From: a virus
DNA: 22,745 bases
IMG/VR virus record: IMGVR_UViG_3300025652_000597
Coordinates: 1-22,745 of that record
Reading direction: 5' to 3' (one strand)
Shown: positions 4,546 through 22,745 of the stretch, in pieces
Layout of the letters: each line of letters begins with the position of its first letter
Numbering within the stretch: the first letter of the stretch is position 1
Program-made: the position numbers and the translations under genes
The notes under the pieces: model-generated
Seen by the model: the letters and a program-made list of their open reading frames with translations, nothing else
What the model was told of the DNA's origin: nothing
Database searches by the model: none

Positions 4546-6526
4546 ATAAAAACGCGCCTAGTCCTACGCCTACTTTCACACCTAACATTGTGCTTTTAAG
4601 AATGTCTTGATAGTTTTTGCCTAGGGGTATTCCTCTTCTTTGAGCCTCTGTAGCCGCCTCTATTAAGTTAATTGTCTTGTCTATTTCCTCAACTTTTAAA
4701 CCTCTTCTAGCTATCAATCCGGGAAGGAAGTTAATTATTTGATTAGCTATGGTTAAAGGCTCAGTAGCTATGTTTTTAGCGGCTTGTTGTTCTGCTTGTG
4801 CGACTGTCAACTGAAAACCTGCACCCCCTGAAGCGCCTCTTTCTAGTATAGATAACTTTTTAACAAGTTTATCTATTTTCTTTTCTACTGGCGTTCCTGC
4901 AAACAAGTGTTTAAAAGTAGCTCTAAATTTAGGATCGTTTAACTTTTTTTGTAACTGTTCAACGCTTTTAGCTCCTCCTCGTCCTTCAAACTTTAAAGCC
5001 TCTTCTAAAAACCCTTTCCTTATGCCTTCTATAGGGTCTGTTTCTCTTAACTGTTTAGCCAACTTTTTACCCACTAAAGAATCTTTAGGTAAATCTCTGG
5101 CGTATTGAGAAGCTAATTTTTTAAGCGTGTTTACTTGGTCTATTCCTACAGTAAATCCTGATTTAGTCAACATAGCTCCTATTTCAGAAGGGTCTAACAC
5201 ATCCATTGCTTTTTCTAGGAACGTGTCGCTGACTACTTTTTGTCCTTTAGCATAATAATCAGTTACATCGTCATACTGTTTTTTTAAAGTAGGGTTAAGT
5301 TTTTCAGCCGCTTCTTCCATTGAGTCTTGTAAAGCGTCTCTAGTTAAGGCAAGAGATTCAATATAGTCAGGGTCTTTGGTAGAAGCAGTTCTAGCCGCGT
5401 GTAGTCTTCGCTTGACTGAAGAGAGTCTTTCGTGAGCTTCTTGAAAGTTTAAATTAGTTGGCAAGTTTTCAAGTTCTTTTACTTGAGCAGAAGCCTTTCC
5501 TGTTAATGCGGGATAAGTTTCTACCCACTCTTCTGTTTTTTTATTGTACTTAGGATCACCTCTAAATTTCTCTTTAAACTCTAAAGCAGACTGTTTGGCT
5601 CTCTCTCTAGCTTGAACAGCCACCCCTTGTCCCGATTTAGCTATTTGTTTATACACAGGAGACACTATCTCATCTAACGCAGTATCAACTTGATTAATCA
5701 AAGACTGAAGAACTTCTCCTTGCTCTCTTGGAGTACCTCCTTTGAACATACCGACTAAATTTTCTGTTTGTTTGCCCATATACGTTCCATAACTCTCAAA
5801 CAAGTTTTCTACAGTTCTTTTAGTAACTTGAGAAACGCGAGCAAACGACCCTAATATTTCTGTTGCAGTTCTTTTAGGTTCGACCATTTGAGGTTGAAGA
5901 GTAGAATCAATTTCTTTTAATTCATCCTGCAGTTCTTTCATTATTTCTATATCTTCATCAGGAAGACCTTTTTTACCACCTATGATTTCTTTTCCTTTCT
6001 TGTATAACTTACCTCCTACACCAAAAACAATACCTAGACCTGCGCTCATTATAGCGTCTGTTTGCGCGGCATCTTTAGCTTGTTCAAAAGCAGAAGAAGG
6101 ATCAACTTTTCTACCTTCTATTAAAGATTCTAAAGTTTCTCCTACTATATTAGCGGTTCCTACAGCAGTCGAGCTAAACAAAGTACCAACTGTATTTGAA
6201 CCTATAGCGGCTCCTACGGGTCCTGCTACAGCAAAACCACCTGCTCCTCCTAAAGTTGTTCCGATACCCGCGGCAGGAATTCCGAAAGCTAATTCTAAAG
6301 CAGGAGTTATATAATCAGCGTATGTCTGTGGGTCTACTTCAATTTCTTCTATGTCTTGTACTGCTTTTTTTCGTGCAGGAGTGTTCACTTCGTACAGAAA
6401 CTGTTCAAAGTTAGCAGGAGGAACAATACCTTGTCCTACTAAAAATGTTTCTATTTCTTCAGGGGTTGCTGAAGAACGTATATCAGTAACAAAAGTCCCA
6501 TCTGGTAAATCAAGAGTTTTCGACAT
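4544..6526 (-). CDS. Large internal virion / DNA-ejection-type protein, 660 residues
   Basis: The last gene of the late operon. Not matched to a named family, but its composition fits podoviral ejection proteins. After an N-terminal stretch beginning LPDGTFVTDI there is a long Gly/Ala-rich hydrophobic region (about 74-127, e.g. GIGTTLGGAGGFAVAGPVGA) and a second at 162-172. The rest (about 185-600) is charged and mostly helical with coiled-coil character, and it ends in hydrophobic GVKVGVGLGAFL. Glycine-zipper-like segments of this kind can insert into membranes, suggesting a part of a transient trans-envelope channel; this is inference. The start overlaps the previous stop (TAATG) with GGGAG upstream. 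Its stop abuts the terminator hairpin. Confidence 0.7.
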   Translation of the reverse strand: MSKTLDLPDGTFVTDIRSSATPEEIETFLVGQGIVPPANFEQFLYEVNTPARKKAVQDIEEIEVDPQTYADYITPALELAFGIPAAGIGTTLGGAGGFAVAGPVGAAIGSNTVGTLFSSTAVGTANIVGETLESLIEGRKVDPSSAFEQAKDAAQTDAIMSAGLGIVFGVGGKLYKKGKEIIGGKKGLPDEDIEIMKELQDELKEIDSTLQPQMVEPKRTATEILGSFARVSQVTKRTVENLFESYGTYMGKQTENLVGMFKGGTPREQGEVLQSLINQVDTALDEIVSPVYKQIAKSGQGVAVQARERAKQSALEFKEKFRGDPKYNKKTEEWVETYPALTGKASAQVKELENLPTNLNFQEAHERLSSVKRRLHAARTASTKDPDYIESLALTRDALQDSMEEAAEKLNPTLKKQYDDVTDYYAKGQKVVSDTFLEKAMDVLDPSEIGAMLTKSGFTVGIDQVNTLKKLASQYARDLPKDSLVGKKLAKQLRETDPIEGIRKGFLEEALKFEGRGGAKSVEQLQKKLNDPKFRATFKHLFAGTPVEKKIDKLVKKLSILERGASGGAGFQLTVAQAEQQAAKNIATEPLTIANQIINFLPGLIARRGLKVEEIDKTINLIEAATEAQRRGIPLGKNYQDILKSTMLGVKVGVGLGAFL

Positions 6527-8121
6527 TAAATGTTACTCCCGTCAATTTTCTTTCTCTTAAAGTTTTTATTAGGTGGTATACCTGCTTTATCAAAAATTGC
6601 CTGTAGTTTTTCTTTATCGTTAATAACACCCATCCAATAATCTACAAAACCAGAAGTGTTGCCTTGGTAATTAATCATCCATTTTTGTAAGGCGTTTTGT
6701 TGAGCCGCCCCTAAAGCATTTTTCTTGGCCTTTCCATATAAATATCCTCTTATTACCTCTGGGCCTTCAGTTATTTGAGGCTGTGTTGCATCAGAGCGTT
6801 TAACTTCCATTTCTGTTGCGGTTCCGGGAGGCAATAATATATTAGACTCTTTAATTCGACCTTCAGCATACTGAAAAGTAAGTAATCTATTTTTATCACC
6901 GACACCAAAAGCGGCCGCTACTTTTCTTTTTACTTCTGCCGGTTCGCCCACCCCTAAATTTAAATCATTATAAGTAAACAAAAGATTAATCGCTTCATTA
7001 CTCTGAGATCCTAAATCAAGAGACTCTTGTAAATGTTGTCTAGCTAACGTAGTAATTCTAGGGTCTACCTTAGCCGCTTCCATAGCTTGGTCAACATCTA
7101 TTAGGTTATTTTCTAAGTTGTCTGCAATAACAGTCATTCCGGCAGTTGTTAAAAACTCTAGCGCGCTCTTTTTTGTCTCTATCTGTTTTACTTTTTCAAT
7201 CTCAACATCTTTTTGAATTCCTGCGGCTACTTCAGGAAAAACAAGTTTTCCGTTATCTACATAACGCTTAAAACCATTTTTGTCTGTTTGTGTTTCTCTT
7301 TTGTCGTCTGCACTGGGCGCTCTAGTCGCTTTTGCTAGTGCTTGCATAAATCCTATATAATCGTTTGGCTTCCACTCGTTATTTCTAACAGCCTCATTAT
7401 ATATCTGAACTTTATCAGGCAAGTTGGCAGTAGTGGCTGATTTTTTTTCTAAGAAAGATGACAAAGACATTTCAGGAATTCCCTTAGCTTTGTTTTCTAT
7501 ATTAATCTGAGCCAAATGTTTCTGTTCGTTTGTTAAATTTTCTCCGCCTATTTTAACATTTCTGTCCATAAATTCTAACAAAGTACCTTCAAATCCTTGA
7601 CTTTTAGCTTGAGCATACTCTTTTTGATCATCAGTTAAATTAGTTTTATCAGCTTCCTTAATAAAGTTTTTCATGTTTGCAGGAGTAATTAAACCTTGTA
7701 AGGCTAATGCACCATAACCTTTATTAGGGTAGGTTCTATCCAAGTATTCTGCAAACTTCGCACGGCTTGTGTTCTTCGCATCTATCCCTGATTGTTTTTC
7801 ATCTTTAAGCTCTTGTTTTTCTAAAATAGCATTTCTTCGTGCTATTGTCTCAGCGGCTCCTACTGGGTTTGCTGAAGACATTTGTAACTTAGCAAGCTGA
7901 GTTAAATCGTCAGGATTTTCAGGATTCATATTAGGAAGTAATTTTTCTAGTTGTTCCATAGGGTTGTCTGGAACTTCTCTTCCTGTTAGTTTAGCAAAAA
8001 GTTTACCTACGGCCCTACCGCCACCTGCGGCTCCTTGAGCAAGTCTTTGATTCCTTGTAAGAGGCTGAATTGGTTGCGTGGGAGTGCCTGTTAATAAACC
8101 CACTAAATCTCGATCTGCCAT
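6526..8121 (-). CDS. Probable internal virion protein, 531 residues
   Basis: A hydrophilic, largely helical protein rich in Lys, Glu, Ala, Asn and Gln, with no signal peptide or clear membrane segment. No family was recognised. The N-terminus (MADRDLVGLLTGTPTQPIQP) is followed by helical repeats of charged residues, and no lytic-transglycosylase motif was noticed. Its position between two other internal-type proteins and downstream of the tail nozzle is the position of T7 gp14-gp16 ejection proteins, which is the only basis for the call. The start has AGGAC upstream, after a 34-nt AT-rich gap, the longest in this part of the operon. The stop overlaps the next start as TAATG. Confidence 0.6.
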   Translation of the reverse strand: MADRDLVGLLTGTPTQPIQPLTRNQRLAQGAAGGGRAVGKLFAKLTGREVPDNPMEQLEKLLPNMNPENPDDLTQLAKLQMSSANPVGAAETIARRNAILEKQELKDEKQSGIDAKNTSRAKFAEYLDRTYPNKGYGALALQGLITPANMKNFIKEADKTNLTDDQKEYAQAKSQGFEGTLLEFMDRNVKIGGENLTNEQKHLAQINIENKAKGIPEMSLSSFLEKKSATTANLPDKVQIYNEAVRNNEWKPNDYIGFMQALAKATRAPSADDKRETQTDKNGFKRYVDNGKLVFPEVAAGIQKDVEIEKVKQIETKKSALEFLTTAGMTVIADNLENNLIDVDQAMEAAKVDPRITTLARQHLQESLDLGSQSNEAINLLFTYNDLNLGVGEPAEVKRKVAAAFGVGDKNRLLTFQYAEGRIKESNILLPPGTATEMEVKRSDATQPQITEGPEVIRGYLYGKAKKNALGAAQQNALQKWMINYQGNTSGFVDYWMGVINDKEKLQAIFDKAGIPPNKNFKRKKIDGSNI

Positions 8122-9058: not shown

Positions 9059-9297
9059 TAGTAACTCCCTCCGCTAATTGTTCCTGCTAAAGTACCCGCA
9101 ATATTAGCGGCTGATAGTGTAGGGGCTGTGACTGTCCCCGTGAATGTTGGCCCTGCTAGATTTGCTTTAGTCGCAACAGCCGTAGCAATGTCATTGAACT
9201 CAGTGTTTATTTCCGAACCCTTCACAATCTTACCTGCATTACCGGAAGGTAACGAATCCTTAGCCGCAAAGTCCGTGGTTTTTGTATAATCACTCAT
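9058..9297 (-). CDS. Small fibre-head-like protein, 79 residues
   Basis: Starts MSDYTKTTDFAAKDSLPSGN, continues KIVKGSEINTEFNDIATAV and ends in a Gly/Thr/Ala-rich repeat (AGPTFTGTVTAPTL, then NIAGTLAGTISGG). The same kind of sequence is found at the N-terminus of many phage tail fibres, where it joins the fibre to the tail. Here it stands alone, directly after the nozzle gene, so it may be a small adaptor or minor virion protein, or a fibre gene reduced to its head. It overlaps the nozzle stop (TAATG, GGGAG upstream) and its stop overlaps the next start. Confidence 0.7.
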   Translation of the reverse strand: MSDYTKTTDFAAKDSLPSGNAGKIVKGSEINTEFNDIATAVATKANLAGPTFTGTVTAPTLSAANIAGTLAGTISGGSY

Positions 9298-10928
9298 TAA
9301 ATAAGTCTCCCTAGTAATACGTTTATGTCAATTTTTTGTATGGAAAATTCCGATCCGCTAATGGTTGATTCTATTCCGACAGTCACTACCGTTCCGTGTC
9401 CTAAACCATGTACATTGGGAACTTGTATTTCTGTTCCTGCTGAGTATTCAGAGGTAGAAACATTGTACTCACTTACACCATAAAAAGCTGTGTTTGCATT
9501 AGTTCTTTTAGATGTAAAAGTTTGTTTGTAGTAAGAATCTGAATAATCATATCCCCAATTAAGAACGGACTGTGCCGCCGCATCCCCAATAATTGTCATT
9601 TTAAACTTTTTAAGGAATTTAATATTGGATGAGTTTCCAAAATCTAACGGATTGCTAAAGTATGATAGTTGATAGGAAGATGTTGAGTAAGTATAAGTAG
9701 AACTAACAAGAGTACATAGTTTATCAGTAAACCCTTTGTACTCATAAATACCCCCTTGTCTTCCCATGTATATCTTACCGTCCTGTGTTCTTGTGTAACA
9801 CAAAGCAATAGGAGTTGACCACGTTGTAACCCTGTGTGATCCGTCAGGTAACGCTTGTCTCATGTCAAAACAATACGTTATATTGTTATTAGGTAAAGTT
9901 AAAAGATAAAAAGCTTCCTCTGGGCTGTACATAGATTTAACGGAAGCTAATGTAGAGTTTACTATTCTTTCCTCACTAACATAACGTACTAAGTCATTCC
10001 TGACGTTTCTGCTTATGTCACGCATAGGCATAGACTTTTCCTGTATGACTCTGCCAAAGCTACGTACACCTGAATCCGATAGGAATATAATGTCAGTACC
10101 TGTGTGCTGTACGGAGTCTCTAGCAACGCAACCTACGCCTTCCACAGTGTCGTGTAAAGCCATTGATGCCGGAGAGGTTGCACCAGAGTACACAACAATA
10201 GATGTCTTACCAAAGACAATAAGGAATCCGTTGTGTGCCGCGAGGGATACAATCTCATCGTGACCAGTAGGCCATACAGTTGTTAAATCAATAGAGCCTG
10301 TAGTGCCGCCATTCCAAACATTACCATTAAGGGTATCAGACCAATATATTGTATGTTTATCCCCTGTAATGTCAGCTACCCATAAACGACCATAAGCCGC
10401 CAATACTTCATTAGCTTGGAAAGGTGCTATGGGTGACCCTCCAACACTAGGAGCAACATATCCATTGACTAATGTTAGTTTCACAAGCCCTTGAGAACTA
10501 GAGTCTGTATAAACTAAAGGTTCATGTCCTCTTTGATAAAAATAAACATGATCGTTAAAGTTGACAACCTTCCAGTTGTTAGCGCTTATAGTATAAAGTG
10601 CAGGAGTTATGTCAGTCAGTGTTCCTGTGCCACTAAATATTTTATTGTTACCTGCTGAGAAAACAACTTTGTCACCGCTTTTATCTAAGGACTCAAAGAC
10701 TGTTTCTACTTTTACAGTATTTGTACCTACTGTTGAAGCCCCTGCGGTATTTGTAGCTGTAGACAACAGCACTGAGCCTTTCCTAGCCCCTACGCGCCCT
10801 AGCTTATCAATAACACAATTAGTTGCAATAGACGCATAACTAGGGTCAAGACCCACAGGGGAATCCTGAGTATTAATACCGCCAAACGCAGGTGCATTAA
10901 TTGTTACGTTCTGTAATTGTTGAGCCAC
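9297..10928 (-). CDS. Tail nozzle / tail tubular protein B-like
   Basis: A 543-residue protein from GTG 10928. The N-terminus, FGGINTQDSPVGLDPSYA followed by ATNCVIDKLGRVGARKGS, is typical of the podoviral tail nozzle family (functional equivalent of T7 gp12): a Gly-Gly-Ile/Leu-Asn-Thr start, then a 'pay attention to this beta-propeller' layout. The rest is beta-rich with propeller-like repeats (AAYGRLWVADI, AAHNGFLIVFGKTSIVVYSG). It would form the distal tail tube through which DNA passes. The GTG overlaps the adaptor stop as TAGTG, with GGAG about 10 nt upstream; an in-frame TTG at 10943 is less likely. Directly upstream is the tail adaptor gene, the usual partner. Confidence 0.78.
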   Translation of the reverse strand: MAQQLQNVTINAPAFGGINTQDSPVGLDPSYASIATNCVIDKLGRVGARKGSVLLSTATNTAGASTVGTNTVKVETVFESLDKSGDKVVFSAGNNKIFSGTGTLTDITPALYTISANNWKVVNFNDHVYFYQRGHEPLVYTDSSSQGLVKLTLVNGYVAPSVGGSPIAPFQANEVLAAYGRLWVADITGDKHTIYWSDTLNGNVWNGGTTGSIDLTTVWPTGHDEIVSLAAHNGFLIVFGKTSIVVYSGATSPASMALHDTVEGVGCVARDSVQHTGTDIIFLSDSGVRSFGRVIQEKSMPMRDISRNVRNDLVRYVSEERIVNSTLASVKSMYSPEEAFYLLTLPNNNITYCFDMRQALPDGSHRVTTWSTPIALCYTRTQDGKIYMGRQGGIYEYKGFTDKLCTLVSSTYTYSTSSYQLSYFSNPLDFGNSSNIKFLKKFKMTIIGDAAAQSVLNWGYDYSDSYYKQTFTSKRTNANTAFYGVSEYNVSTSEYSAGTEIQVPNVHGLGHGTVVTVGIESTISGSEFSIQKIDINVLLGRLI

Positions 10929-11578
10929 TATACAGGTCTCCAAACAGTTTCCTCTGGGTGACGAGCTACGTCAAAAGCAATCATATCACCTAATGTTTGA
11001 TCAGCAATAGCAAAGAGTTCCGCAGAGGATGTACCGCCTGTTTCCCCTCGCTCTCTTGAAGCCAGAGCTACAGCGTAGTGTATTACAGGATTAGAAGGAA
11101 CATACAAAGTAGCCGTATCTTCAGCCAGTGTTGCTTTTTTATCTACAGCGTTGACACGTATAACATATTCTTTATCTGGAATAGGGTAAAAATCAATAAT
11201 TGCTTCCCCTGCATCATTAAAACCATTCCAAGAGTAATACACAGGAGAGCCATAAGCGGGAGTGTTGTTTAAAAAAGCATTGTTCATCCAGTGTGACGTT
11301 ACAGGCTTTAAAAAACAATTAGATGTGTCATTAATAATATCAAGGGTTTTAAGACTTATATCGGAATTAGTAAGCTGATACCTAAAAACAGTATCTGTTG
11401 TGTTAATAGTAAATGTAGTCCGTAAAGAAGCCCAATCCCAAGAGTCCTCTACAATTCTTTTTGCATCGTTTACAAACTCTCCTATTAACTTGGAATAGCT
11501 GTTGTCCGACACAGACTCAATTGTATCATCTTCCCTTAGCCGTCTTAGTACGCTCTGTACAAGTTGTAAGTAAGTCAT
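10928..11578 (-). CDS. Head-tail adaptor (tail tubular protein A-like)
   Basis: A 216-residue protein beginning MTYLQLVQSVLRRLREDD, followed by GEFVNDAKRIVEDSWDWASL. This helical start with VNDAKR..VEDSWDW is typical of podoviral adaptor proteins that ring the bottom of the portal (position of T7 gp11 or P22 gp4). The middle is a beta-sandwich-like stretch with YYSWNGFNDAGEAIIDFYPIP, and the C-terminus returns to helices (YAVALASRERGETGG). Paired with the nozzle gene, which starts inside its stop. The ATG has AAGGAT about 11 nt upstream, in a 31-nt gap after the 3TM holin-like gene. Assignment is by pattern and neighbours. Confidence 0.75.
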   Translation of the reverse strand: MTYLQLVQSVLRRLREDDTIESVSDNSYSKLIGEFVNDAKRIVEDSWDWASLRTTFTINTTDTVFRYQLTNSDISLKTLDIINDTSNCFLKPVTSHWMNNAFLNNTPAYGSPVYYSWNGFNDAGEAIIDFYPIPDKEYVIRVNAVDKKATLAEDTATLYVPSNPVIHYAVALASRERGETGGTSSAELFAIADQTLGDMIAFDVARHPEETVWRPV

Positions 11579-12752: not shown

Positions 12753-13262
12753 TCACTTTAATGGATTAGAAAGGTAGTCCATTGCAGACCACAGGTCTTC
12801 TACCTCTCTCTTAATTGTAGTTATCTTTGCTTCAAATCCACTGACCTTCTCTGTGACTAACTCAGCCTTTGTTACTGTGGCTTTCATGGATTCAATTTCT
12901 TTCTCAAGGTCATCTACATTTTCATCAATAAGTAACAACTTGTCTTGCTGATCAATTATCGTTTGTAGATTAGCTCCAAGGGTTGCTAGTTTTCCTTGCA
13001 ACTGCGATACATCATTGTCTGCTAGCTCTTGCTTAATTAACTCAATCTCACTCAAAAGTTCTTGCTTGTTTGTTACAACTTGTTCTTGTAGAGGCGTAAT
13101 GTTTGGTATCTCATTTAACTCTACAGACTCAAGCCGTGAGTACAAACTGCTTGCTGTCCATACACCGCCACCCAAGGTTGTTGCAAGACTAAACAAAATT
13201 GCAATGTACACACCTTTAAAGGAAGTACCTCCAATCTTTAACTCAGTCTCTTCTAGGCTCAC
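12753..13262 (-). CDS. Membrane-anchored coiled-coil protein, 169 residues
   Basis: One transmembrane segment (about 17-37, VYIAILFSLATTLGGGVWTA) follows a short acidic cytoplasmic-looking end. Nearly all the rest is heptad-like coiled coil rich in Glu, Leu, Lys and Gln (e.g. LLSEIELIKQELADND, LEKEIESMKATVTKAEL). This layout resembles inner-membrane spanin-type or lysis accessory proteins, but no family is confirmed and no outer-membrane partner lipoprotein was identified. The start is GTG 13262, overlapping the previous stop as GTGA, with a weak ribosome site, suggesting re-initiation. It precedes the small holin candidate, supporting a role in host lysis. Confidence 0.7.
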   Translation of the reverse strand: MSLEETELKIGGTSFKGVYIAILFSLATTLGGGVWTASSLYSRLESVELNEIPNITPLQEQVVTNKQELLSEIELIKQELADNDVSQLQGKLATLGANLQTIIDQQDKLLLIDENVDDLEKEIESMKATVTKAELVTEKVSGFEAKITTIKREVEDLWSAMDYLSNPLK

Positions 13263-14116
13263 GTTTCATCGCTCTCATCGCAATCAACTTGATACACAAA
13301 ACAGTTGTAACCTAATGCGGTAGGGCCAGTATTGTAGAACTGACTTTCATAACCTGTGTTTAAAATAGTTGCTTCTGAAGCGTAGATGTCCAATCCGTAA
13401 TCACCTTGACCATTAAGGTAAATACTACTCACTGTGTTACTGGATGCCCACGCTAACTCAACAGCTTGGTTAGATGAGCTATAAGTCAAGGCGTTAGCTT
13501 CAACGCGAGTGTTATTGTCCATTGCTCCTTGATTCAAAAATGCGACAGCTTCGGGATTTCCCGCCACCGCCAAGAAAGCTCCTGCGGCATTGGCGTGGTT
13601 TTCAATATCGTCAAGGCTCTGATTGTAGGTGTCAGCATCATCTTGACTAACAGACATATCATTCTGCGCTATGTATTCTTGAACTTCCGCTTGGTCATCA
13701 GGAGTCTCAGCGGCTTCTGCTCTTTCTGCTACTTCCTGTACCTCAAGCATGTCAACAACGACAGTAGTAAAATCTTCAATAGCATCTTCCATTGCGTCAA
13801 GTTCACTTTGCGCTTGCTCGTTCAAGTAATCTTCTGCTGAACCATAAGGCATATAATTGACCATGCCTGTTAGAGAAGAGTTATACGCAGATACTTGCTC
13901 ATCAGAAATGTAGTAGTTACCTGAAAGCTGACCAGAAGAAATACCCATGCCAGTTTGAGATGCGTGAATTGAGCCACCAACAAACATAATACCTTTGTTT
14001 ATCTGATCAACGATTGCGCTAGACGTTTCTATTAGAGTGTCAAGCTCACTTGATTGAGCGCCTAAACATGACAGACACAAGCTCATCAGAACCGCTTTCT
14101 TCATTTTCATCATCAT
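13259..14116 (-). CDS. Secreted acidic protein with signal peptide, unknown function
   Basis: A 285-residue protein beginning MMMKMKKAVLMSLCLSCLGA, a typical export signal with cleavage likely after residue 20. The mature part is strongly acidic and Asp/Glu/Gln/Asn-rich, with a helical centre (about 95-155) and a beta-like C-terminal part ending YNCFVYQVDCDESDET. Cysteines at 14 and 17 lie in the signal; no good lipobox is seen. The export signal means the protein is made to work in the periplasm or envelope of the host, or in the virion after export. The first ATG (14116) has AGGAT just upstream; the fourth or fifth Met would also keep the signal. The start overlaps the previous gene by 71 nt. 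No family recognised. Confidence 0.75.
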   Translation of the reverse strand: MMMKMKKAVLMSLCLSCLGAQSSELDTLIETSSAIVDQINKGIMFVGGSIHASQTGMGISSGQLSGNYYISDEQVSAYNSSLTGMVNYMPYGSAEDYLNEQAQSELDAMEDAIEDFTTVVVDMLEVQEVAERAEAAETPDDQAEVQEYIAQNDMSVSQDDADTYNQSLDDIENHANAAGAFLAVAGNPEAVAFLNQGAMDNNTRVEANALTYSSSNQAVELAWASSNTVSSIYLNGQGDYGLDIYASEATILNTGYESQFYNTGPTALGYNCFVYQVDCDESDET

Positions 14117-14771
14117 CTGATCCTATCCCTAAAATTGAGTTGTACCATTTTTGCGTGTCGCTGTACTTCGGCGTTGGTGGTTTTTTAGACCACGTTGCCT
14201 TACGTCTTACTGCTACTTCACCATAATCAGGGATGTACAAATTAGGTTGTGTTTTCATTAACAGAAAAGCACGTTTACCTACAACTAGTTTTCCGCTTGC
14301 AATCAAAGGACAAGGAGTAGCTGAAAGCATCATTGACCTAAAGGTTTCAACACTGCCTTGGCAAAGACGACTGATAGCCGCTACCTTCATTCCTAAATCA
14401 CTTAAAAGCTTGGCATCCCTGCGACGATTACAATCAACATCCTTTTGATACGAACCGTCTGTATAACCTATCAGCCCTGTTTGAATACTACGGCCTGATC
14501 CTTGTAAGCAAGTTTCCATGCCGTTAGACATGTAAGACGGCGCTATTGCACTCCCTACTGGCATATCAGAGGAGCTTCCTGCTCCGTTGTAAGTATTTGA
14601 AACACTTCGGTCTTCACTATTGTTATTGGAGCTAACAGTTGATCCAACAGTATTGGTATTCAAGCTACCGTCTTGCGTATTCTGACTGTCCGTGTCGCCC
14701 ATTGGTTCTTCATTTTCCTGAGAAAATACTGAAAAACTAATAACTAAAAACAAAAATATAAAAGGTTTCAT
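14046..14771 (-). CDS. Secreted protein with signal peptide and Ser/Asn-rich linker, unknown function
   Basis: A 241-residue protein. MKPFIFLFLVISFSVFS is an export signal with likely cleavage after Ser17. Residues 18-75 are a disordered Ser/Asn/Thr/Asp-rich linker. A compact domain follows with four cysteines (C88, C114, C137, C154), enough for two disulfides in the periplasm, including METCLQGSGRSIQTGLIGYT and CNRRRDAKLLSDLGMKVAAI. The end is acidic (GSDDDENEESGSDE), because its DNA is shared with the next gene's signal peptide. Proteins of this kind are seen in marine phages without known function. It lies four bases after the previous stop with no strong ribosome site, suggesting coupled translation. 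Together with the next gene it may form an envelope pair. Confidence 0.75.
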   Translation of the reverse strand: MKPFIFLFLVISFSVFSQENEEPMGDTDSQNTQDGSLNTNTVGSTVSSNNNSEDRSVSNTYNGAGSSSDMPVGSAIAPSYMSNGMETCLQGSGRSIQTGLIGYTDGSYQKDVDCNRRRDAKLLSDLGMKVAAISRLCQGSVETFRSMMLSATPCPLIASGKLVVGKRAFLLMKTQPNLYIPDYGEVAVRRKATWSKKPPTPKYSDTQKWYNSILGIGSDDDENEESGSDELVSVMFRRSIK

Positions 14772-14775
14772 TCAT

Positions 14776-15081
14776 TTACGTTCTTGCAGGATATATACCA
14801 CCGCCAAATCTGATTATTACACTAGAACCAGAGCCAAACTCTCCAGTTTTAACACCGGCACGATAAGCCATTGACGGCTCAGGTTCAAACCCTACAAACT
14901 CACCACTGGCAGTAAAGGTATCTACGTCGTACCAAGTGGAACCATCAGTGCTACGCTGTACAGTAAGGATAGTACCGTTAGCAAACGTCCCTGATACGGA
15001 AAGATTAAAACCACCGTCAAAAAAGGTAGTGTCGCTGAAAGTATTCTGAGCAGTAATGGTTTCAGTTACATAAGTTGTCAT
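14776..15081 (-). CDS. Small beta-rich protein, probable virion component, 101 residues
   Basis: Starts MTTYVTETITAQNTFSDTTF and continues with alternating beta-strand pattern (LSVSGTFANGTILTVQRST, then DGSTWYDVDTFTASG), ending IIRFGGGIYPART. The DGSTWYDV piece recalls small jelly-roll or Ig-like domains found in marine phage structural proteins. No signal peptide. Its place beside adhesin and fibre genes suggests a small surface or decoration protein. Strong ribosome site AAGGAG before ATG 15081, lying in the end of the upstream gene. Function unknown. Confidence 0.7.
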   Translation of the reverse strand: MTTYVTETITAQNTFSDTTFFDGGFNLSVSGTFANGTILTVQRSTDGSTWYDVDTFTASGEFVGFEPEPSMAYRAGVKTGEFGSGSSVIIRFGGGIYPART

Positions 15082-15082
15082 C

Positions 15083-15340
15083 TTATTCTCCTTGCGCGTC
15101 TAAGTGAGTTTGATATGCGGCTTTAGCTTCGTCTGTAAATACAACACTAGCAATTGCTACAACATCAGCATCTTCACTAGAAAGGTCTGCATCAGGTGTA
15201 AGAACATGACGATGAAAGTTTCTAGATATTTCCTCATCATCTCTACTGATAATCGTTGCAGTGCGTACCTGTACTACTGGGTATCCTGCTAAATGTAATA
15301 CTTCTATCTTGTCGTTCAATGTTGCTTCTGAAAGTGCCAT
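15083..15340 (-). CDS. Conserved small phage protein, 85 residues, function unknown
   Basis: MALSEATLNDKIEVLHLAGY and onward, with VQVRTATIISRDDEEISRNF and HRHVLTPDADLSSEDADVVA, ending AYQTHLDAQGE. A very similar pattern (MALSEATLNDKIEVV…ISRSFHRHV…PD) recurs in marine phages, usually near structural genes, with no proven role. ATG 15340 has AGGA seven bases upstream and is preferred over an in-frame start at 15385, which lies in another small reading frame. Short stem GTGGC/GCCAC at 15362-15377 stands just upstream. The next gene's ribosome site is within its last codons. Confidence 0.72.
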   Translation of the reverse strand: MALSEATLNDKIEVLHLAGYPVVQVRTATIISRDDEEISRNFHRHVLTPDADLSSEDADVVAIASVVFTDEAKAAYQTHLDAQGE

Positions 15341-15351
15341 GTTTATTTCCT

Positions 15352-15423
15352 TTAGTTTATCGTGGCGAAAGTGCCACCTGTCCACCCACTAGGGGTATTA
15401 ATTAATCCGATTAGTTTTGTCAT
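15352..15423 (-). CDS. Possible 23-residue peptide in the gap before the conserved small protein
   Basis: A tiny frame reading MTKLIGLINTPSGW and then TGGTFATIN, between the beta-helix gene ending at 15473 and the 85-residue gene. There is no clear Shine-Dalgarno. In the same frame upstream of its stop codon lies DPSTNDIYEIAKKVT without a start. It could be a leader peptide or the decayed end of a lost fibre gene. Coding status is uncertain. Confidence 0.25.
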   Translation of the reverse strand: MTKLIGLINTPSGWTGGTFATIN

Positions 15424-15472: not shown

Positions 15473-17146
15473 TCATTTTATCGTGCCCCAACCGCTTGAT
15501 GGTTGCTGTGTAAAGAACACTGAATTAGAAGAAGTAGCTGAATTAACCGTAACCCTTGCGTGTAAAAGACCACCATTCGACCATTCATCCAGTACCTCAA
15601 CAAAACCATAGCCACTGGAACCCCATGAGGGAGCATTCGTAGCGTTAACACTAGCTATATCGACTGTAAAAGCGTTACGAGGGACTAAGTTGTTAAAATT
15701 AAATGTCCACCCACTTTCTACAAGAGAGATAAAACCGTAGTTATTTTGAATTCTAAAACTTTTTACTTCCAAAATCGGATTACCACTCAATTGTCTAAAG
15801 GGTCTATAGTCCGTTGCATTGAGGGTGTTATGACAGTCCGTAACTTCAAAACTTAATTTCTGAGAAACATCACCGCTTGTATAGTTTGTATAACCGATTG
15901 CATAAATAGCAATTGGCCCCCTAACATTTCTTACTATTACAGTTGTTTCAGTGCTTTTTGCCGCTACCTCACCACCGCTAAACTCAATAATACCTCTATT
16001 TAAAGCTGTCGTTGTTAATGTACCGTAAGGGATTATATTGAGGTCACTTACTTCAGTATAAGAACTTTCCGCGCTTGATTGTTGTAATAATGTACAATAT
16101 CGAGGGATTACTACTTCAGTAATTACAGTACCACCGACAGCCTTACCATCATTTATCTTATCACTAAGATTTTGCTGAAATGTCACACATGCGTGAGAAG
16201 CCCCTAATGGGCTATTTCCATTTGCTAATTTATAGTATTCAATGGTTGGCTCTATAAGTAGTGATGTTCCTCCAAGCTGAAAATCAAAATCGATGCCGTT
16301 AGTAATGGATGTATAGGATTCTCTAGTTACTTTTGGCCTATATATAGTTGTTTCTGAACATTGAGATTTTACGGAGCGACCCTGACAGTCTATAAAAACA
16401 CAGTTATTGACTCGTGCTACTCCTGCTCTAGCGTTAGTACTAGCAGAAGCACCTATTGTTTTACCAAAAACTGCAATACCGTCTGCGTCCGAATCAGAAG
16501 GAGTCAAAACATTTTTAACATATACATTTTCTATCGTAGCTAACCCACTAAACTGAGACACCGACAACCCTTTAGTAGCCCCTGCTGAAGTATTTGTACG
16601 TTGAACACTCTCAATGTAAAGGTCTTGAACAAGGATTTTTCCATAGTCCCCGTATATTTCCATTGCAGAGTTTTCTCTAGCTTCAGTTGACGAGTTTTCT
16701 TTAATGTTTTTAATCTTAACTGCCGCTGTTATATTGACCGATCCTCCAGATGAATCATTGTGGCGTATGCTTATACCACGCCCTGCTTTGTCATTACCTT
16801 CAATTTGCAAGATACCGCCAGTAATAGAGGCACTGTTGTAATCATTAGTAGCAAAGTATAATACATCACTAAACGCTGTTGACCCTGAGTCAACTTCAAT
16901 AATCACATTGCTTTCAAGATTAATGTGCAGGCCACCAGAGGTTCTAGTGGCATAAGGCTGTATTGGCCCTGAGATTTTGTAGGTTCCATCAGGTATTGTG
17001 ACAGTTCTTTTTAATGGAATTGCGTAATCAAAACACGCTTTTAAGGCCGCAGTATCATCTATTACTCCATCTCCTACTGCACCAAAGTCCAAGACACTAA
17101 CTGGAGTTCCTGCAATCATTCTGTTGTGTGCTTTAGTTAAAGCCAT
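15473..17146 (-). CDS. Pectate-lyase-3-like beta-helix adhesin, cassette copy 2
   Basis: A 557-residue protein. The head MALTKAHNRMIAGTPVSVLD leads into FGAVGDGVIDDTAALKA (21-37) and TVTIPDGTYKIS (48-59), the entry to a right-handed parallel beta-helix of the Pectate_lyase_3 type used by tailspikes to bind or cut host polysaccharide. The middle is a run of short Asn/Gly/Val/Ile-rich strands; the last ~100 residues look like a separate beta domain ending PSSGWGTIK. Catalytic residues cannot be named. It is a paralogue of the 591-residue gene, sharing the head (MALTK…NR.I.G…VLD.GAVG.G..DDT) while the bodies differ. Ribosome site GAGGAAAT precedes the ATG. The partner fibre gene ends ten bases upstream. 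Confidence 0.8.
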   Translation of the reverse strand: MALTKAHNRMIAGTPVSVLDFGAVGDGVIDDTAALKACFDYAIPLKRTVTIPDGTYKISGPIQPYATRTSGGLHINLESNVIIEVDSGSTAFSDVLYFATNDYNSASITGGILQIEGNDKAGRGISIRHNDSSGGSVNITAAVKIKNIKENSSTEARENSAMEIYGDYGKILVQDLYIESVQRTNTSAGATKGLSVSQFSGLATIENVYVKNVLTPSDSDADGIAVFGKTIGASASTNARAGVARVNNCVFIDCQGRSVKSQCSETTIYRPKVTRESYTSITNGIDFDFQLGGTSLLIEPTIEYYKLANGNSPLGASHACVTFQQNLSDKINDGKAVGGTVITEVVIPRYCTLLQQSSAESSYTEVSDLNIIPYGTLTTTALNRGIIEFSGGEVAAKSTETTVIVRNVRGPIAIYAIGYTNYTSGDVSQKLSFEVTDCHNTLNATDYRPFRQLSGNPILEVKSFRIQNNYGFISLVESGWTFNFNNLVPRNAFTVDIASVNATNAPSWGSSGYGFVEVLDEWSNGGLLHARVTVNSATSSNSVFFTQQPSSGWGTIK

Positions 17147-17156
17147 TTTTATTTCC

Positions 17157-17942
17157 TCAAGACGCTATATAAGTATGAGTTCCAGACCAACCTGTAGAAG
17201 TACTAGTTGAGATGCTTTGAAACAAAAATAAAGTTGATCCGAAAATATTGCCAAAGCTACCGATAGTATTTGCACTAATAGAGCCAGTGGCATAACTTCC
17301 AGACGATGAATTAACAGTAGAGGCAAACGGAAGATTATCTATTTGGCTGTAGCTAGACATGTAAGCGGCAGTTGAAAGTGTTGCAGACCAAGTTACAGTT
17401 ACAACCCGACCCACCTTAGTATATGTGCCACTTGATGCTGATACACTTGCAGAGCCGCTAAACCCATTTACTGCAAAATTAGGAGTCCATACACCCTCTT
17501 CGTAATCATCAAAAAGCTCAGATGTGCCAGTGCCAGCAGTAGCAGAGAAGTCTATGCCTTTGCCAGAGGTTGCTATTACTAGGTTGCCGCCAATAGAGAC
17601 ACCAGCCGATGTGGTTTCTAGCCTTTTACCACCTCCTGTAAAATATAACTCAGCCGCACCATTGTTTCCGTAAAATATTTTATTACCTGAAGCTGTAGAT
17701 ATATTAGGGTTATCAGCCCAGATTCTTAAATCACCAGTACCAGTATCTTTTATATAGCTATTATTACCATCATGGTAAATCTGCAGGTCATCGTTATTTC
17801 CAAATATAGCCTTTTTTCCATCTTCCCAAGTAATATCAGAATCTATGTCAATGTTGCCTTCAAAGGTTAGTTGCCCTTCAATAGTAACATCGTTGAATGT
17901 TGGGTTACGTCCAAAGACACCACCGTTTTGTTTAATACTCAT
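17157..17942 (-). CDS. Tail fibre-like protein, cassette copy 2 (261 residues)
   Basis: Begins MSIKQNGGVFGRNPTFNDVT, a head shared almost exactly with the 315-residue gene. It continues DLQIYHDGNNSYIKDTGTGD (52-71) and GKGIDFSATAGTGTSELFDD (127-146) with YEEGVWTP, motifs frequent in marine phage tail fibres. The last ~100 residues (Ser/Thr/Gly-rich beta strands) differ from the other copy and are the likely variable tip. No enzymatic motif. AAAGGAAT precedes the ATG. It lies between two beta-helix genes in the pattern fibre, helix, fibre, helix. A structural or attachment role is inferred. Confidence 0.78.
   Translation of the reverse strand: MSIKQNGGVFGRNPTFNDVTIEGQLTFEGNIDIDSDITWEDGKKAIFGNNDDLQIYHDGNNSYIKDTGTGDLRIWADNPNISTASGNKIFYGNNGAAELYFTGGGKRLETTSAGVSIGGNLVIATSGKGIDFSATAGTGTSELFDDYEEGVWTPNFAVNGFSGSASVSASSGTYTKVGRVVTVTWSATLSTAAYMSSYSQIDNLPFASTVNSSSGSYATGSISANTIGSFGNIFGSTLFLFQSISTSTSTGWSGTHTYIAS
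17482..17567. repeat. Duplicated fibre block, copy 2, central part
   Basis: An 86-bp stretch inside the 261-residue fibre gene that matches 20120-20205 with 7 mismatches by eye. It encodes the GKGIDFSATAGTGTSEL module and is a remnant of the cassette duplication. Confidence 0.85.
17881..17942. repeat. Duplicated fibre block, copy 2, gene start
   Basis: The first 62 bp of the 261-residue fibre gene match 20636-20697 with 7 mismatches by eye. The changes mostly leave the protein head MSIKQNGGVFGRNPTFNDVT unchanged, indicating that the head is under selection. Confidence 0.88.
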
Positions 17943-17971
17943 TTTTCTATTCCTTTAATTAGGTTGAACAA

Positions 17972-19747
17972 TTAAATTCTAATAATCTCAAACTCAGCTT
18001 TCCAATCGTAAGTAGCTGTAGCACCTGAATTTACTCGCAACCGCAAATTATTACCTGACGCTTCCCACACAAAAGCAGATGTATCTCCTGCTGTCTTTAT
18101 GTCGCTTAGTGTCGTAGCCGCCGCTTCAAGAGCAACACCACCCCCTGCATCCCTATAAGCTAACACTGCTGTTCTTACATATCTGCGCTTAGTGCTATCG
18201 CTTAACTTACAGGCAATATCTGCAACAATAGATACGGAAGACTCATCATCCAAAGGAATCTGGTACATGGTTACAGGAGTAGTAGAAGTAGTTTGGGCTG
18301 TCTGCTTATTTGTTCCAGTAGAGTAGCCAAAGTTACCAATGTTCAGAAGAGATGCCGCGCTGTTAGAATCTAATGTTACATCTACAGGCCAATCTTTTAG
18401 CAAAACATTTGCTCGCGCAGAATAAGCCCCAGAGGTTCCAGTGAATACTGCTTTGCCTTTTACCCAAATATTTCCTGCAACGGCATACAATCCGTAGTCC
18501 TGAAGACTACTGACATCAGTTGCTTCTGGATCAATCAACGTCAGAGAGCCAACATTGTTAATATTAATGCCGTAATACGCTCCATTAGTTGTGTTTGCCT
18601 CTCGAATCTTTGGCTTGATAGTAATGTTGTTTGCTGAAACAGAGTCAATAAAAACCCCATCGCGTCCCGATCTAGTGCTGATGATATCAATATCAATATC
18701 TTTATTGTTTGTGCCTTGAATTACTAAACCGTATTGAGTTGAATCTTCTGCCACAACAGTAGCTTGCATATTACTTGTATCTTTATTGATGCCTAAACCT
18801 CGCTGACATCCTCGCGCAACAACAGTTGCAACAATATTACTGATAGATGCAACACCAGTAGTTCCTGCATTTTGAATTTCTAGCGCGTGTGATCCACAGT
18901 TTGTAGCGTTCACATCGAGAATAAAGTTTTTAATATCTGGATTAGCAGATAACGCAGATTGAATTTTGCAACCGTCTAACTCACAATCGGACGCAATGAT
19001 ACTTAAATTTATGTTTCCAGATTGTAGGTACGCCCCATGCTGACCGGGGATGCCGTGAATAACACCATTTAAAACAATATTATCGTTATTGCCTTGAGTG
19101 TATGTGCTGTAAACTTCAACAAGTATTCCCTGTGCTGTTCCAGTTACATTTAAATTATTTATTTGAACATTCTTGCAGTTACCATAAGTCGCTGAATGCT
19201 TAATGTAGATTCCGTTTTGAAAATTTGCAGACGCAGGAATTGTTGAACCATAATTGTGAGTACCTTCGACAGTTATGTTTTCAACCATCACGCCAACCGA
19301 CCCTTCGATATACAGTCCTGCGTTAGATCCGTTTCTTGTTCTTGCATTTGTTATATTGACAGTTTCACAATCAATAATTGAAATAACCCTGTCTAAATGC
19401 CCAGAGTTTCCTGTCCAACTTGAAGAATATGCACCCTTTCCTTTGAACAGAGCATTATTGCACTGCATGTCTATGTTAGTTTTAGTCGTTGCCTTAAAGA
19501 CTGATTTGTCGTCAGTGGATTGCTCAATTATTACTCCCGCATTAAGAATTACAGACGCATCTGAACTCAACGAAATTTCATCTGTAAGCAGATAAGTTCC
19601 GTCTGGATAAAAAACACTTTTGCCTGTAGTGTGCGCGGCCTGTATTGCTAACGTATCATCTTTAGTGCCATTACCCACTGCTCCATAATCAAGGACGTTT
19701 GCTAGCGCACCAGATATCAGCCTGTTTGTTACTTTTGTTAAGGCCAT
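17972..19747 (-). CDS. Pectate-lyase-3-like beta-helix adhesin, cassette copy 1
   Basis: A 591-residue protein with head MALTKVTNRLISGALANVLD, then YGAVGNGTKDDTLAIQAA (21-38) and SVFYPDGTYLL (44-54): the start of a right-handed beta-helix. A long run of coil repeats follows (about 60-430, for example KNVQINNLNVTGTAQGILVE and NIVATVVARGCQRGLGINKD), consistent with a trimeric tailspike stalk. The C-terminal 120 residues form a distinct beta domain (e.g. QIPLDDESSVSIVADIACKL) ending DWKAEFEIIRI. Enzyme activity on polysaccharide is possible but not shown. It starts three bases after the fibre gene's stop, so the two are probably translated together. A weak ribosome site, TAGGGTATAAAA, precedes ATG. 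Confidence 0.8.
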   Translation of the reverse strand: MALTKVTNRLISGALANVLDYGAVGNGTKDDTLAIQAAHTTGKSVFYPDGTYLLTDEISLSSDASVILNAGVIIEQSTDDKSVFKATTKTNIDMQCNNALFKGKGAYSSSWTGNSGHLDRVISIIDCETVNITNARTRNGSNAGLYIEGSVGVMVENITVEGTHNYGSTIPASANFQNGIYIKHSATYGNCKNVQINNLNVTGTAQGILVEVYSTYTQGNNDNIVLNGVIHGIPGQHGAYLQSGNINLSIIASDCELDGCKIQSALSANPDIKNFILDVNATNCGSHALEIQNAGTTGVASISNIVATVVARGCQRGLGINKDTSNMQATVVAEDSTQYGLVIQGTNNKDIDIDIISTRSGRDGVFIDSVSANNITIKPKIREANTTNGAYYGININNVGSLTLIDPEATDVSSLQDYGLYAVAGNIWVKGKAVFTGTSGAYSARANVLLKDWPVDVTLDSNSAASLLNIGNFGYSTGTNKQTAQTTSTTPVTMYQIPLDDESSVSIVADIACKLSDSTKRRYVRTAVLAYRDAGGGVALEAAATTLSDIKTAGDTSAFVWEASGNNLRLRVNSGATATYDWKAEFEIIRI

Positions 19748-19749
19748 TT

Positions 19750-20697
19750 TTATACCCTATAAGATAGTGTAAAAGTTAAGTGATTGTCATTTGCGCCTGT
19801 GTCTAAATCTGTCAATGCGGCTTGATTATTATTGATATCTCGTGGGACTGCTTCAGTTCCAAAGCAGGAAACAAGTTCAAAGTTGGTTGCATCCACAAAA
19901 CCCGCTCTAAGCGCGGTGGCGTTATTCCACTGGTCAGCCGTTGACCCAACAGTAAAGGGCAAGCCGCCAATTCGCACATTACCAGAACCAGAACCAACAG
20001 TTAATGCATCTGTTCTGATGGCGCAAAATACCGTAACAAGTTCTCCAATTTTGACATAGCTTCCAGTTTGTATGTCGTAAGTAACAGAATCAAAATCTGT
20101 CCCACTGGTAGTATATGTAGGAGTCCATGTACCCTCCTCGTAATCATCAAGTAGCTCAGAGGTGCCAGTGCCAGCGGTAGCAGAGAAGTCTATGCCTTTG
20201 CCAGAAACAAAAGCTAAATTTCCAGAAGTGTTAAATCGTGCGGCTTCAGACCCAGTTAATGTAGTGTTGTTTGGGGCTGTGTAAAAGACAATATTATTTG
20301 TCGCGTTTGCGCCACTAATGCCACCACCAATCGACACCGTACCTCCTGTAACTGACGAGCTAGAAGTTAGAAGCATACCTGTTAAATTTTCTTCAGCATT
20401 TGTATAGTGTCTTCCTAATATTGCCCCATATTTAGTAGTAGCATCAGAAGCTGTATTACTAACTCTAAATTGTGTAGAAAGCCCTGCATCTATAACGTCT
20501 AACTGTATTCCGCTTGCGGCTACTCCTACACCAACATTGCCAGTAAGAGATGAAGTCCCTGTAACCTCAAGATCACCATCAATTTTAAGGTCAGAGTTAA
20601 TATCAATGTCACCGTCAAAGGTTAAAGTTCCATCAATAGTTACATCGTTAAATGTAGGGTTGCGGCCAAAGACACCACCATTCTGTTTAATACTCAT
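19750..20697 (-). CDS. Tail fibre-like protein, cassette copy 1 (315 residues)
   Basis: Head MSIKQNGGVFGRNPTFNDVT as in the 261-residue copy, then a repeated IDGTLTFDGDIDINSDLKID and DGDLEVTGTSSLTGNVGVG pattern (20-58) common in fibre shafts. The module GKGIDFSATAGTGTSELLDD (166-185) with YEEGTWTP follows. The middle (60-160) and the last ~120 residues have no counterpart in the other copy. No catalytic motif is seen. AGGAG stands before the ATG. It is directly downstream of the S74 spike. An adhesin or fibre role beside the beta-helix protein is inferred from the paired layout. Confidence 0.78.
   Translation of the reverse strand: MSIKQNGGVFGRNPTFNDVTIDGTLTFDGDIDINSDLKIDGDLEVTGTSSLTGNVGVGVAASGIQLDVIDAGLSTQFRVSNTASDATTKYGAILGRHYTNAEENLTGMLLTSSSSVTGGTVSIGGGISGANATNNIVFYTAPNNTTLTGSEAARFNTSGNLAFVSGKGIDFSATAGTGTSELLDDYEEGTWTPTYTTSGTDFDSVTYDIQTGSYVKIGELVTVFCAIRTDALTVGSGSGNVRIGGLPFTVGSTADQWNNATALRAGFVDATNFELVSCFGTEAVPRDINNNQAALTDLDTGANDNHLTFTLSYRV
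20120..20205. repeat. Duplicated fibre block, copy 1, central part
   Basis: An 86-bp stretch in the 315-residue fibre gene, 7 mismatches by eye to 17482-17567. Both copies are in the same orientation. Confidence 0.85.
20636..20697. repeat. Duplicated fibre block, copy 1, gene start
   Basis: The first 62 bp of the 315-residue fibre gene, 7 mismatches by eye to 17881-17942, same orientation. Confidence 0.88.
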
Positions 20698-20712: not shown

Positions 20713-22745
20713 TTAAAGTGCGGCTATGATGAAACTCAATAACTCTTCATAACGAATGCCGTAGCGGTTTCCTGCTTCTAGCTCAACATTACCATCTTTG
20801 TCTTGTCGCTCTTCCCACTTGTCGTAACAGTAAAAAGCATAGTCTTCTGGGGTAAGGCCGTGGCTTGTAAGGATTTCACCAACCTGTTGTGCCGATGCTC
20901 CAAAGTGAATTCGTGCGCCATCACCTTTAGATTCAATAGCATCATTGAACTTAAACTTGCGTAAGTTTGCCTTGATTTCTAAGGCCGCTGATGTCTCTGC
21001 ATCTTCAATAGTTAAGAATGTTTTTTCTCTTGCATCAGAGGTGTTGATAGTGCCTGTTCCTGCGTAGACTACGCTGAATCTTTGCGAGGCGGTTCCTAAA
21101 GAATACGCATTGTCAGCCGAAGGTCTAAATCCTGAACTATAAGCTTGAAATCTTGCGGCACCATCTATATTAAAATATATACCGCCAGACCCAGACACAA
21201 TGTTCATAAAGTTAGCACCTGTATCTGCACCAACTGTCCAATCATCTGAAGCAGATAACCCTATAGCATTTTTGAGATTGCCTGCACTATCTTTAATCTG
21301 CACAGACTTACCGTTTTGAAGCTTAACCAGACCAGAAAACTCATGGTCATTGGTGTCAATTTTAATATAATTTGTATTGGTATCTGGGCCTAATTTTATT
21401 TGATTAAGTGAGCCAGAAGATACATCTCGATAGATGTGGTTATTTGCATTGCCAGCATTGGTAATTGCTAATGGATTAGAGTTGCTCATGTAATAACAGG
21501 AAGAAGTTCCAAGAAGAAATGCAACAGTAGTACTGGATGTTGAAAATTGATTACCAATTAAGTTACAGTTAGGTAGACCAACAGTAACATTTCCTGTACA
21601 CCTATTGCTAACAACCATACCGCCATTAGTTCCTGACGGCCCAGTGCCTTTTGAGATGTTTAGTTTACCAATTTGACACCCAAGAATAGTTTGAGAGCCA
21701 CAGTCAACAAGCAAAATACCACCATTTGTTTGTCCAGTTCTTACACCAGTAAGGTAATGATAAAGAGTTGCTGTGCCAGATACACCAATTTCTATGTCGT
21801 AATCCGAAACGCCAGTTGCTGTTGTTGCCCAAGTGTTGTGGCCACCATAAATTCTTATTGGGCCGCCTGTTGCTTTTAATGCTCGACCATGAGCATCACT
21901 TGAGCCGCAGTTCTCAGAAAAAGTAATTCGGTTGCCTGTTAAAGAAATGTTGTCACCAGTAAAGCTAGATGCGTTTCCCCTAAAATCTATTCCACCAAAG
22001 TACAAGTCATCGCCTGACCCAGAGATAATAGTTCCGTTAGCGTCTTTAGTTATCCGCGTGTGACCACCGTTGGCAATAAAAGACTGCTGATTGTTGTTAA
22101 CGGTTAAACCTTGGGCCAAGTAGTTACCTTCAGGAAAGAAAACATCCTTACCAGTGTCGATAGCCGCCTGTATAGCGTCCTTACTGGAAGTAGCTCCAGT
22201 GCTATCTGCCCCAAAGTCTTTAACGCTTACAGTCTCGCGTAACTTAGTTTGAACAGTAGTAGCGACTGCACCAGTACCAGCAGGGGTGTAAGACACTAGA
22301 TCAGAACTAGTAGACCCCACAGCAAGAGCCGATGTAACCATGACTTCAATAGTGCTTAGATTAGGGGGTGCAACAGAAAAAGTTAATACTGTACCTGATA
22401 CACTGTATCCATCTTTTTGTTGGTAGACACCATCAATATAAACTTGAGTATTGTTCTCAGAGTTAGGAGTTGAGCCTAGAGTAAAGGCTACTGTAGAACC
22501 ATCGCCAGTAAAGTTGTAAGGAGTCCAAGCGGCAGAATCATATAATACAGACAATGTACTAGCTTCAGGCGCACCAGTAACAGAGTTAAAGGATAACAGT
22601 TTACCCTTACGATCATCTTTCAAAGGGATAGTCATGTCTACCCCACTAGTAGGAGGCTCGACATCTTTAAGTCTTAGGCTACGACCACCCTCATTCTCGT
22701 TCTGAACCGCACCAATGTAAATCTTATCAAAGTCTTCGTTAACAT
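20713..22745 (-). CDS. Tailspike/fibre with pectate-lyase-3-like beta-helix and S74 chaperone domain, N-terminus cut by right edge
   Basis: The frame is open to the right edge: codons upstream of ATG 22635 read DKIYIGAVQNENEGGRSLRL then KDVEPPTSGVD without a stop. That ATG lacks a clear ribosome site, so it is probably internal. Numbering from it, 35-105 is a beta module (WTPYNFTGDGSTVAFTLG, QVYIDGVYQQKDGYSVSG). VKDFGADSTGATSSKDAIQA (138-157) and DVFFPEGNYLA open a beta-helix. The end is a peptidase S74 self-cleaving chaperone: TSDAREK (Ser533-Asp534 at the expected cut site), FGASAQQVGEIL and a final helical RYEELLSFIIAAL. S74 domains guide trimer folding, then cut themselves off. Likely a trimeric host-recognition spike attached to the tail. 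Confidence 0.88.
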   Translation of the reverse strand, partial: VNEDFDKIYIGAVQNENEGGRSLRLKDVEPPTSGVDMTIPLKDDRKGKLLSFNSVTGAPEASTLSVLYDSAAWTPYNFTGDGSTVAFTLGSTPNSENNTQVYIDGVYQQKDGYSVSGTVLTFSVAPPNLSTIEVMVTSALAVGSTSSDLVSYTPAGTGAVATTVQTKLRETVSVKDFGADSTGATSSKDAIQAAIDTGKDVFFPEGNYLAQGLTVNNNQQSFIANGGHTRITKDANGTIISGSGDDLYFGGIDFRGNASSFTGDNISLTGNRITFSENCGSSDAHGRALKATGGPIRIYGGHNTWATTATGVSDYDIEIGVSGTATLYHYLTGVRTGQTNGGILLVDCGSQTILGCQIGKLNISKGTGPSGTNGGMVVSNRCTGNVTVGLPNCNLIGNQFSTSSTTVAFLLGTSSCYYMSNSNPLAITNAGNANNHIYRDVSSGSLNQIKLGPDTNTNYIKIDTNDHEFSGLVKLQNGKSVQIKDSAGNLKNAIGLSASDDWTVGADTGANFMNIVSGSGGIYFNIDGAARFQAYSSGFRPSADNAYSLGTASQRFSVVYAGTGTINTSDAREKTFLTIEDAETSAALEIKANLRKFKFNDAIESKGDGARIHFGASAQQVGEILTSHGLTPEDYAFYCYDKWEERQDKDGNVELEAGNRYGIRYEELLSFIIAAL

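Follow-up and report, generated by a model that had tools for sequence, protein, structure and literature searches.

Why should one phage carry two fibre–spike gene pairs side by side, and did the second arise by copying the first? The question is posed by the virus record IMGVR_UViG_3300025652_000597, of which we analysed positions 1 to 22,745 (22.7 kb; hereafter the window). Between 15473 and 20697 two short fibre genes (F1, F2) alternate with two β-helix spike genes (B1, B2), and they lie within an adsorption island that reads, on the minus strand, anchor spike (XD domain, β-helix and S74) > F1 > B1 > F2 > B2 > p100 > p101. We propose, with a probability of roughly 0.7, that this island encodes a branched multi-receptor adsorption apparatus composed of an anchor with an XD domain, short peptides for docking and tips that can be exchanged, with a second fibre–spike pair that was taken up, or a pair of which both members were exchanged. 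An earlier note made from the sequence alone had described the four genes as a tandem duplication, and its open reading frames (ORFs), with their sizes, order and single strand, are all as it gave them; the four are intact, with gaps of 2, 29 and 10 nt between F1/B1, B1/F2 and F2/B2, respectively.

The fibres and spikes have conserved heads and divergent bodies

F1 (19750..20697, minus strand, as are all island features below) has 315 amino acids and is divided by sequence matches and a structural model into a docking head, a shaft and a C-terminal knob, while F2 (17157..17942; 261 amino acids) has an F1-type head and a related knob, recognised by protein match to F1 (E = 1e-32) and by hidden Markov model (HMM). 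A repeat search found two blocks shared by the F genes, one of 115 nt with 81% DNA identity and one of 88 nt with 92%, and the mismatches previously counted by eye in these blocks (7 in the first 62 nt of the genes and, around GKGIDFSATA, 7 in 86 nt) were exact. The head peptide MSIKQNGGVFGRNPTFNDVTI (20635..20697 in F1, 17880..17942 in F2) is identical in the two proteins, and their first 21 codons differ by seven synonymous and no nonsynonymous changes, which argues that the head is under purifying selection. Across related loci the F heads are invariant at 10 positions and follow the consensus MSIKQ.GG.FGRNPTF.

The F1 knob domain (Fcore, GKGIDFSATAGTGTSELLDDYEEGTWTP..., 19933..20223) and its F2 counterpart (17301..17588) were both located by HMM. 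Our F1 model has a mean predicted local distance difference test (pLDDT) score of 67.6, with a usable C-terminal knob, and this knob matches the C-terminal domain of the Dettilon tailspike (6f7d; Z 9.2, root-mean-square deviation (rmsd) 3.0, 115 residues aligned), with weaker structural matches to viral fibre heads. Searching PDB sequences with F1 alone gave no match, and a profile of the F alignment matched the same Dettilon domain (E 1e-4). In one related locus a second, divergent and knobless F head (MVFRPLGGVFHRHPVFN) lies between p100 and p101 (L235:9349-10350).

B1 (17972..19747; 591 amino acids) and B2 (15473..17146; 557 amino acids) are secondary β-helix spikes that score 40.7 and 36.1 bits with PF12708 (cut-off 27), compared with 31 bits for the anchor. 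Tips of PF12708 tailspikes usually bind or cut surface glycans. Only ~16 residues precede the β-helix, forming the head peptides MALTKVTNRLISGALA (19700..19747) and MALTKAHNRMIAGTPV (17099..17146), identified by alignment and a B-head HMM, with the tip modules following at 17972..19699 and 15473..17098. The match between B1 and B2 (E = 4e-13) falls mainly in the first ~65 residues. Of the two head motifs that had been proposed, MALTK..NR.I is specific to these proteins, whereas GAVG.G..DDT is the common start motif of PF12708 found in many tailspikes. B heads are conserved among related loci, partly owing to the way in which the B set was selected, and the bodies are mostly unrelated, with 36 of 8778 pairs being >30% identical; the view that heads are conserved while bodies and tips diverge is thus borne out by the relatives' sequences, which support divergent, exchangeable tips. 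One gene in the B position starts with MALTK and has no recognised β-helix start (L014:2831-4123), and the B-type head may therefore carry other tip folds. As far as their sequences tell, F and B would both be secondary receptor-binding proteins (RBPs) that have no anchor domain and begin with a short conserved N-terminal peptide.

Tips are shared between B genes and anchor spikes

From its residue 17-18 onward, the B1 body matches the main anchor-spike body of a close relative (L084): over 966 nt, as far as that contig reaches, the DNA is 98.3% identical. Likewise, the B body of L094 and the anchor body of L092 represent one tip (87% protein identity), L239 B and the L216 anchor are 94% identical over 420 amino acids, and the B2 body is 51-54% identical to spike bodies on three different anchors (L038, L087-L089 and L090). 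A comparison of all B and anchor proteins gave 27 hit pairs with an N-terminal joint, and in 26 of them it fell within B residues 4-20; several pairs do not count as independent, their contigs being related. The joint is at residue ~16-18, immediately ahead of the first β-helix rung (V.DFGA.G). Since the same tips occur on two carriers with a fixed joint, the unit of exchange is the tip and not the gene. These comparisons indicate that the B bodies are mobile tips with a constant cutting point at the joint, that receptor-binding modules can pass between B and anchor spike positions, and that the B1 and B2 bodies have separate histories.

The second pair was probably not copied in place

In-place tandem duplication of one F–B pair, with later replacement of the tips, would explain why the two halves have the same order, strand and head peptides, and why F1 and F2 share blocks at 81% and 92% DNA identity. 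The F heads and knobs nevertheless all have closer DNA matches in other phages than in the neighbouring pair. Over 84 nt the F1 head matches L219, whose record ends there, without a mismatch (100%), and it is 92% identical to L187, while the F2 head is 90% identical to L213, in a match that continues for 222 nt at 84%; the two heads are 81% identical to each other, below the match of each in other phages. For the knob blocks, F1 is 98.9% identical to L191 and F2 94.2% to L173/L174, compared with 92% between F1 and F2. In a knob tree, which is poorly resolved and based on a short alignment, the nearest rows are also other loci, and the order F-B-F-B occurs in no other sampled locus. The claim of a tandem duplication is therefore not supported in its simple form, and we consider it unlikely. 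The DNA matches suggest instead that the island is a mosaic whose history is less likely to have been the copying of one pair in place, although this could still apply given how short the blocks are and that gene conversion may have occurred. The earlier note had taken separate arrival of the two pairs as what would speak against its proposal; relatives' DNA largely points to such arrival as regards origin, but this does not extend to function.

A 29-nt repeat is present at the start regions of p100, B2 and B1 (15323-15351, 17129-17157 and 19730-19758); comprising upstream bases and the MAL.. codons, it is a possible foothold for recombination.

The anchor spike carries a predicted docking domain

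The anchor spike gene (20713..22743) encodes an XD (DUF4183-like) domain, a β-helix tip and a C-terminal S74 domain, with its 5' end lost at the contig end. Peptidase_S74 (PF13884; 28.9 bits, cut-off 22), an auto-cleaving chaperone domain with solved homologues such as 3gw6 and 4uw8, covers residues 569-630 (20854..21039) and among the island spikes is found only in the anchor. The XD HMM scores 110 bits over residues 76-136 (22336..22518), the proposed docking site. The L219 spike is 75% identical to the window anchor at the protein level, and the likely capsid gene of L219 differs in type from that of L084 and L092. Text searches of an open library returned no paper on DUF4183 together with phage, nor on DDYEEG.

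The XD protein at many loci stands alone, as an adaptor of ~160 amino acids whose end directly follows the XD domain. The model of one such adaptor (L310; mean pLDDT 82.8) has two domains. Residues 12-96 match the head-binding domain of the P22 tailspike (1lkt; Z 10.2, rmsd 1.9, 83 aligned) and also Pan3 by structure comparison, and in a profile search this N-terminal half matches the Pam1 head-binding domain (E 5e-13). Residues 102-167 match residues 187-249 of CBA120 TSP4 (7rfv; Z 10.4, rmsd 1.4, 63 aligned), as well as the T7 gp17 N-terminal domain (7boz, Z 8.8) and T4 gp10 (5iv5_B, Z 6.6). By the domain limits in PMC8825819, TSP4 187-249 is XD2, and XD2 and XD3 bind other spikes. Because the window anchor and the L310 adaptor share the XD family, we take the window XD to be a docking-type domain, and the anchor would accordingly carry a T4gp10/XD-type fold as modelled on its homologue. 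P22-like N-terminal head-binding domains are carried by relatives' XD proteins, and the window anchor gene begins past the contig end.

Related loci and the small partner p100

We built HMMs for F head, F knob, B head, p100, p101, XD and S74 and used them to classify ORFs in all fetched loci, which come from limited, query-driven scans and do not give unbiased frequencies. Of 126 distinct loci centred on p100, 69 show the commonest order, XD > F > B > p100, and only the window has F-B-F-B. The record of phage DSL-LC05 also shows XD > F > B > p100. p100 (phrog_6228; 15083..15385), which probably starts at the ATG at 15340 (MALSEATLNDKIEV), has no Pfam match, either as the window protein or as its L005 homologue. 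A p100 gene lies nearby in 48 of 49 F loci with a knob and in 0 of 18 without (Fisher 2e-15), a co-occurrence which suggests that p100 may help the knob to fold, as a chaperone, or cap it.

F and B could also be free enzymes, or adhesins attached separately to the tail, forming no branch with the anchor. Each of them occurs alone, and lineage cousins of the window phage (L118-L121) have two MALTK β-helix genes in tandem without F. Yet no known virion-binding domain would fit into the ~16 residues before the B β-helix, and most loci have an XD protein ahead of B, so that we regard separate attachment as distinctly improbable.

A proposed branched apparatus

In the branched arrangement that we favour, the anchor spike would attach to the virion tail, bear its own β-helix tip and offer docking faces through XD. 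The F proteins would be short, trimeric, knobbed fibres that plug in by the conserved head MSIKQ.GG.FGRNPTF, and the B proteins, which are almost headless, would plug in by MALTK..NRMI; these secondary RBPs would bind the anchor's docking domain. In virions their tips would bind or cut surface glycans, and recombination at the joint before the first rung would carry a tip from one phage to another, between B and anchor genes. A second F–B pair may have been taken up by the window phage, or both members of one pair may have been exchanged, and its two pairs plus the anchor could display up to five tips. The branched multi-receptor tail suggested previously thus finds support as a design, with the docking-type XD domain in the anchor, and its physical assembly is inferred.

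The two F proteins have the same or almost the same head, as do the two B proteins, which implies either docking sites beyond the usual one each or competition. It is conceivable, though doubtful, that F1 and F2, and B1 and B2, compete for the same sites and that one genotype yields virions with random mixtures of tips; if true, this would be a combinatorial host-range bet made without a DNA inversion switch.

The second pair might instead be a passenger, that is, an alternative tip set or recombination reservoir that is poorly expressed or unassembled. A single p100 follows two F genes, and an arrangement unique in our sample suggests a transient state. With four intact ORFs, short gaps and conserved heads, and with promoter-like and terminator-like sites no commoner in the island region than in shuffled sequence, we find a passenger pair rather improbable.

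Several observations weigh against the branched apparatus. The window anchor is cut at its 5' end, which places the part that would attach to the virion outside the sequence; the XD fold comes from the model of a homologue, and XD-type folds are also present where no docking is known. The F1 model is mediocre, and all models are of single chains. Furthermore, Vibrio phage 5P1a combines an XD anchor with B but lacks F, and many F loci have no B, showing that F and B are not obligate partners.

Genomic setting

The window comes from an uncultured, podovirus-like, short-tailed phage. One of its strands encodes polymerase, Cas4-type exonuclease, endonuclease and ribonucleotide reductase, and the structural and lysis proteins are encoded on the opposite strand. 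A capsid sequence search found distant (<60%) relatives only, spread over several phage groups. Scanning genome contigs with the F head yielded no relatives, so prophages gave no indication of the host.

p101 (14776..15081), a conserved small protein, closes the island, and here the DNA match to L092 and L094 resumes. These close relatives are 88% identical to the window from p101 onward and have different islands, an anchor with a short knobless F in L092 and B with the same short F in L094.

Elsewhere (4544-8121), a 531-amino-acid protein is conserved with L094, L097 and L099 over residues 1-164 only (91%); beyond this point it is replaced along with the next gene, of 660 amino acids, for which relatives have a different 754-amino-acid protein. 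These head-conserved, body-swapped genes likely encode ejection proteins. A 548-amino-acid protein of a PHROG amidase family (9297-10943) has an insertion of ~95 amino acids after residue 166 in L092, L094 and L119. Two overlapping genes (13259-14771; 241 and 285 amino acids) with apparent signal peptides separate the fibre island from the lysis genes and are conserved in close relatives.

Comparison with known systems

That no described system has this form, as had been suggested, is too strong, since K1-5, G7C, KP32 and CBA120 have branched RBPs. Among the closest in design are TSP1-4 of CBA120 and other Kuttervirus phages (PMC8825819, PMC8432352), which share with the window an XD-docking anchor, several spikes, modules common to different positions and a conserved joint; Sorensen et al. 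(PMC8432352) report that receptor-binding modules have been exchanged among TSP positions, where a conserved motif marks the joint. Unlike the window phage, these are myoviruses, their secondary spikes have folded head domains (and XDs in TSP2), the joint is GTTAVSL rather than V.DFGA.G, and no knobbed short fibre or p100 partner is described.

Latka et al. (PMC6872550) describe systems of an anchor, a T4gp10-like domain and a short conserved peptide. G7C gp66/gp63.1, KP32 and K1-5 (PMC6872550) resemble the window in their T4gp10-like anchor or adapter and in a second RBP with only a short conserved N-terminal peptide; they differ in having one or two RBPs, not two fibre–spike pairs. The P22/Sf6/Pam1 head-binding domain has the same fold as the N-terminus of relatives' stand-alone adaptors, but P22 joins this domain and the β-helix in one protein, whereas here they are split into adaptor, F and B.

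Among marine phages, the Alteromonas A5/V22 module (PMC10579305) likewise combines a fibre with a small chaperone and is shared by phages of different families, although its chaperones have 195-240 amino acids and resemble intramolecular chaperone domains, while p100 has ~85-100 and no known fold. In the named isolate Vibrio phage 5P1a, an XD anchor precedes a pectin-lyase-fold B with the head MVTKTNNRMIDG, but there is a single B and no F, and no p100 was found. Host-recognition genes of marine phages are known to lie in variable islands (Mizuno et al., PMC3909814).

By these likenesses, the window system appears to be an aquatic-phage counterpart of branched tails with several spikes, which were already known from phages of Klebsiella, E. 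coli and Salmonella. As far as we found in open-library searches, the novelty lies in the F (knob) partner and p100, in how short the B head is, in the adaptor being split off in many aquatic phages, and in the doubling of the pair. Branched modular RBP systems, known mainly from enterobacterial phages, would thereby extend to widespread uncultured aquatic phages, for which XD adaptor, F head and knob, B head and p100 offer an annotation key, and the doubled pair makes it testable whether identical docking peptides compete within one virion.

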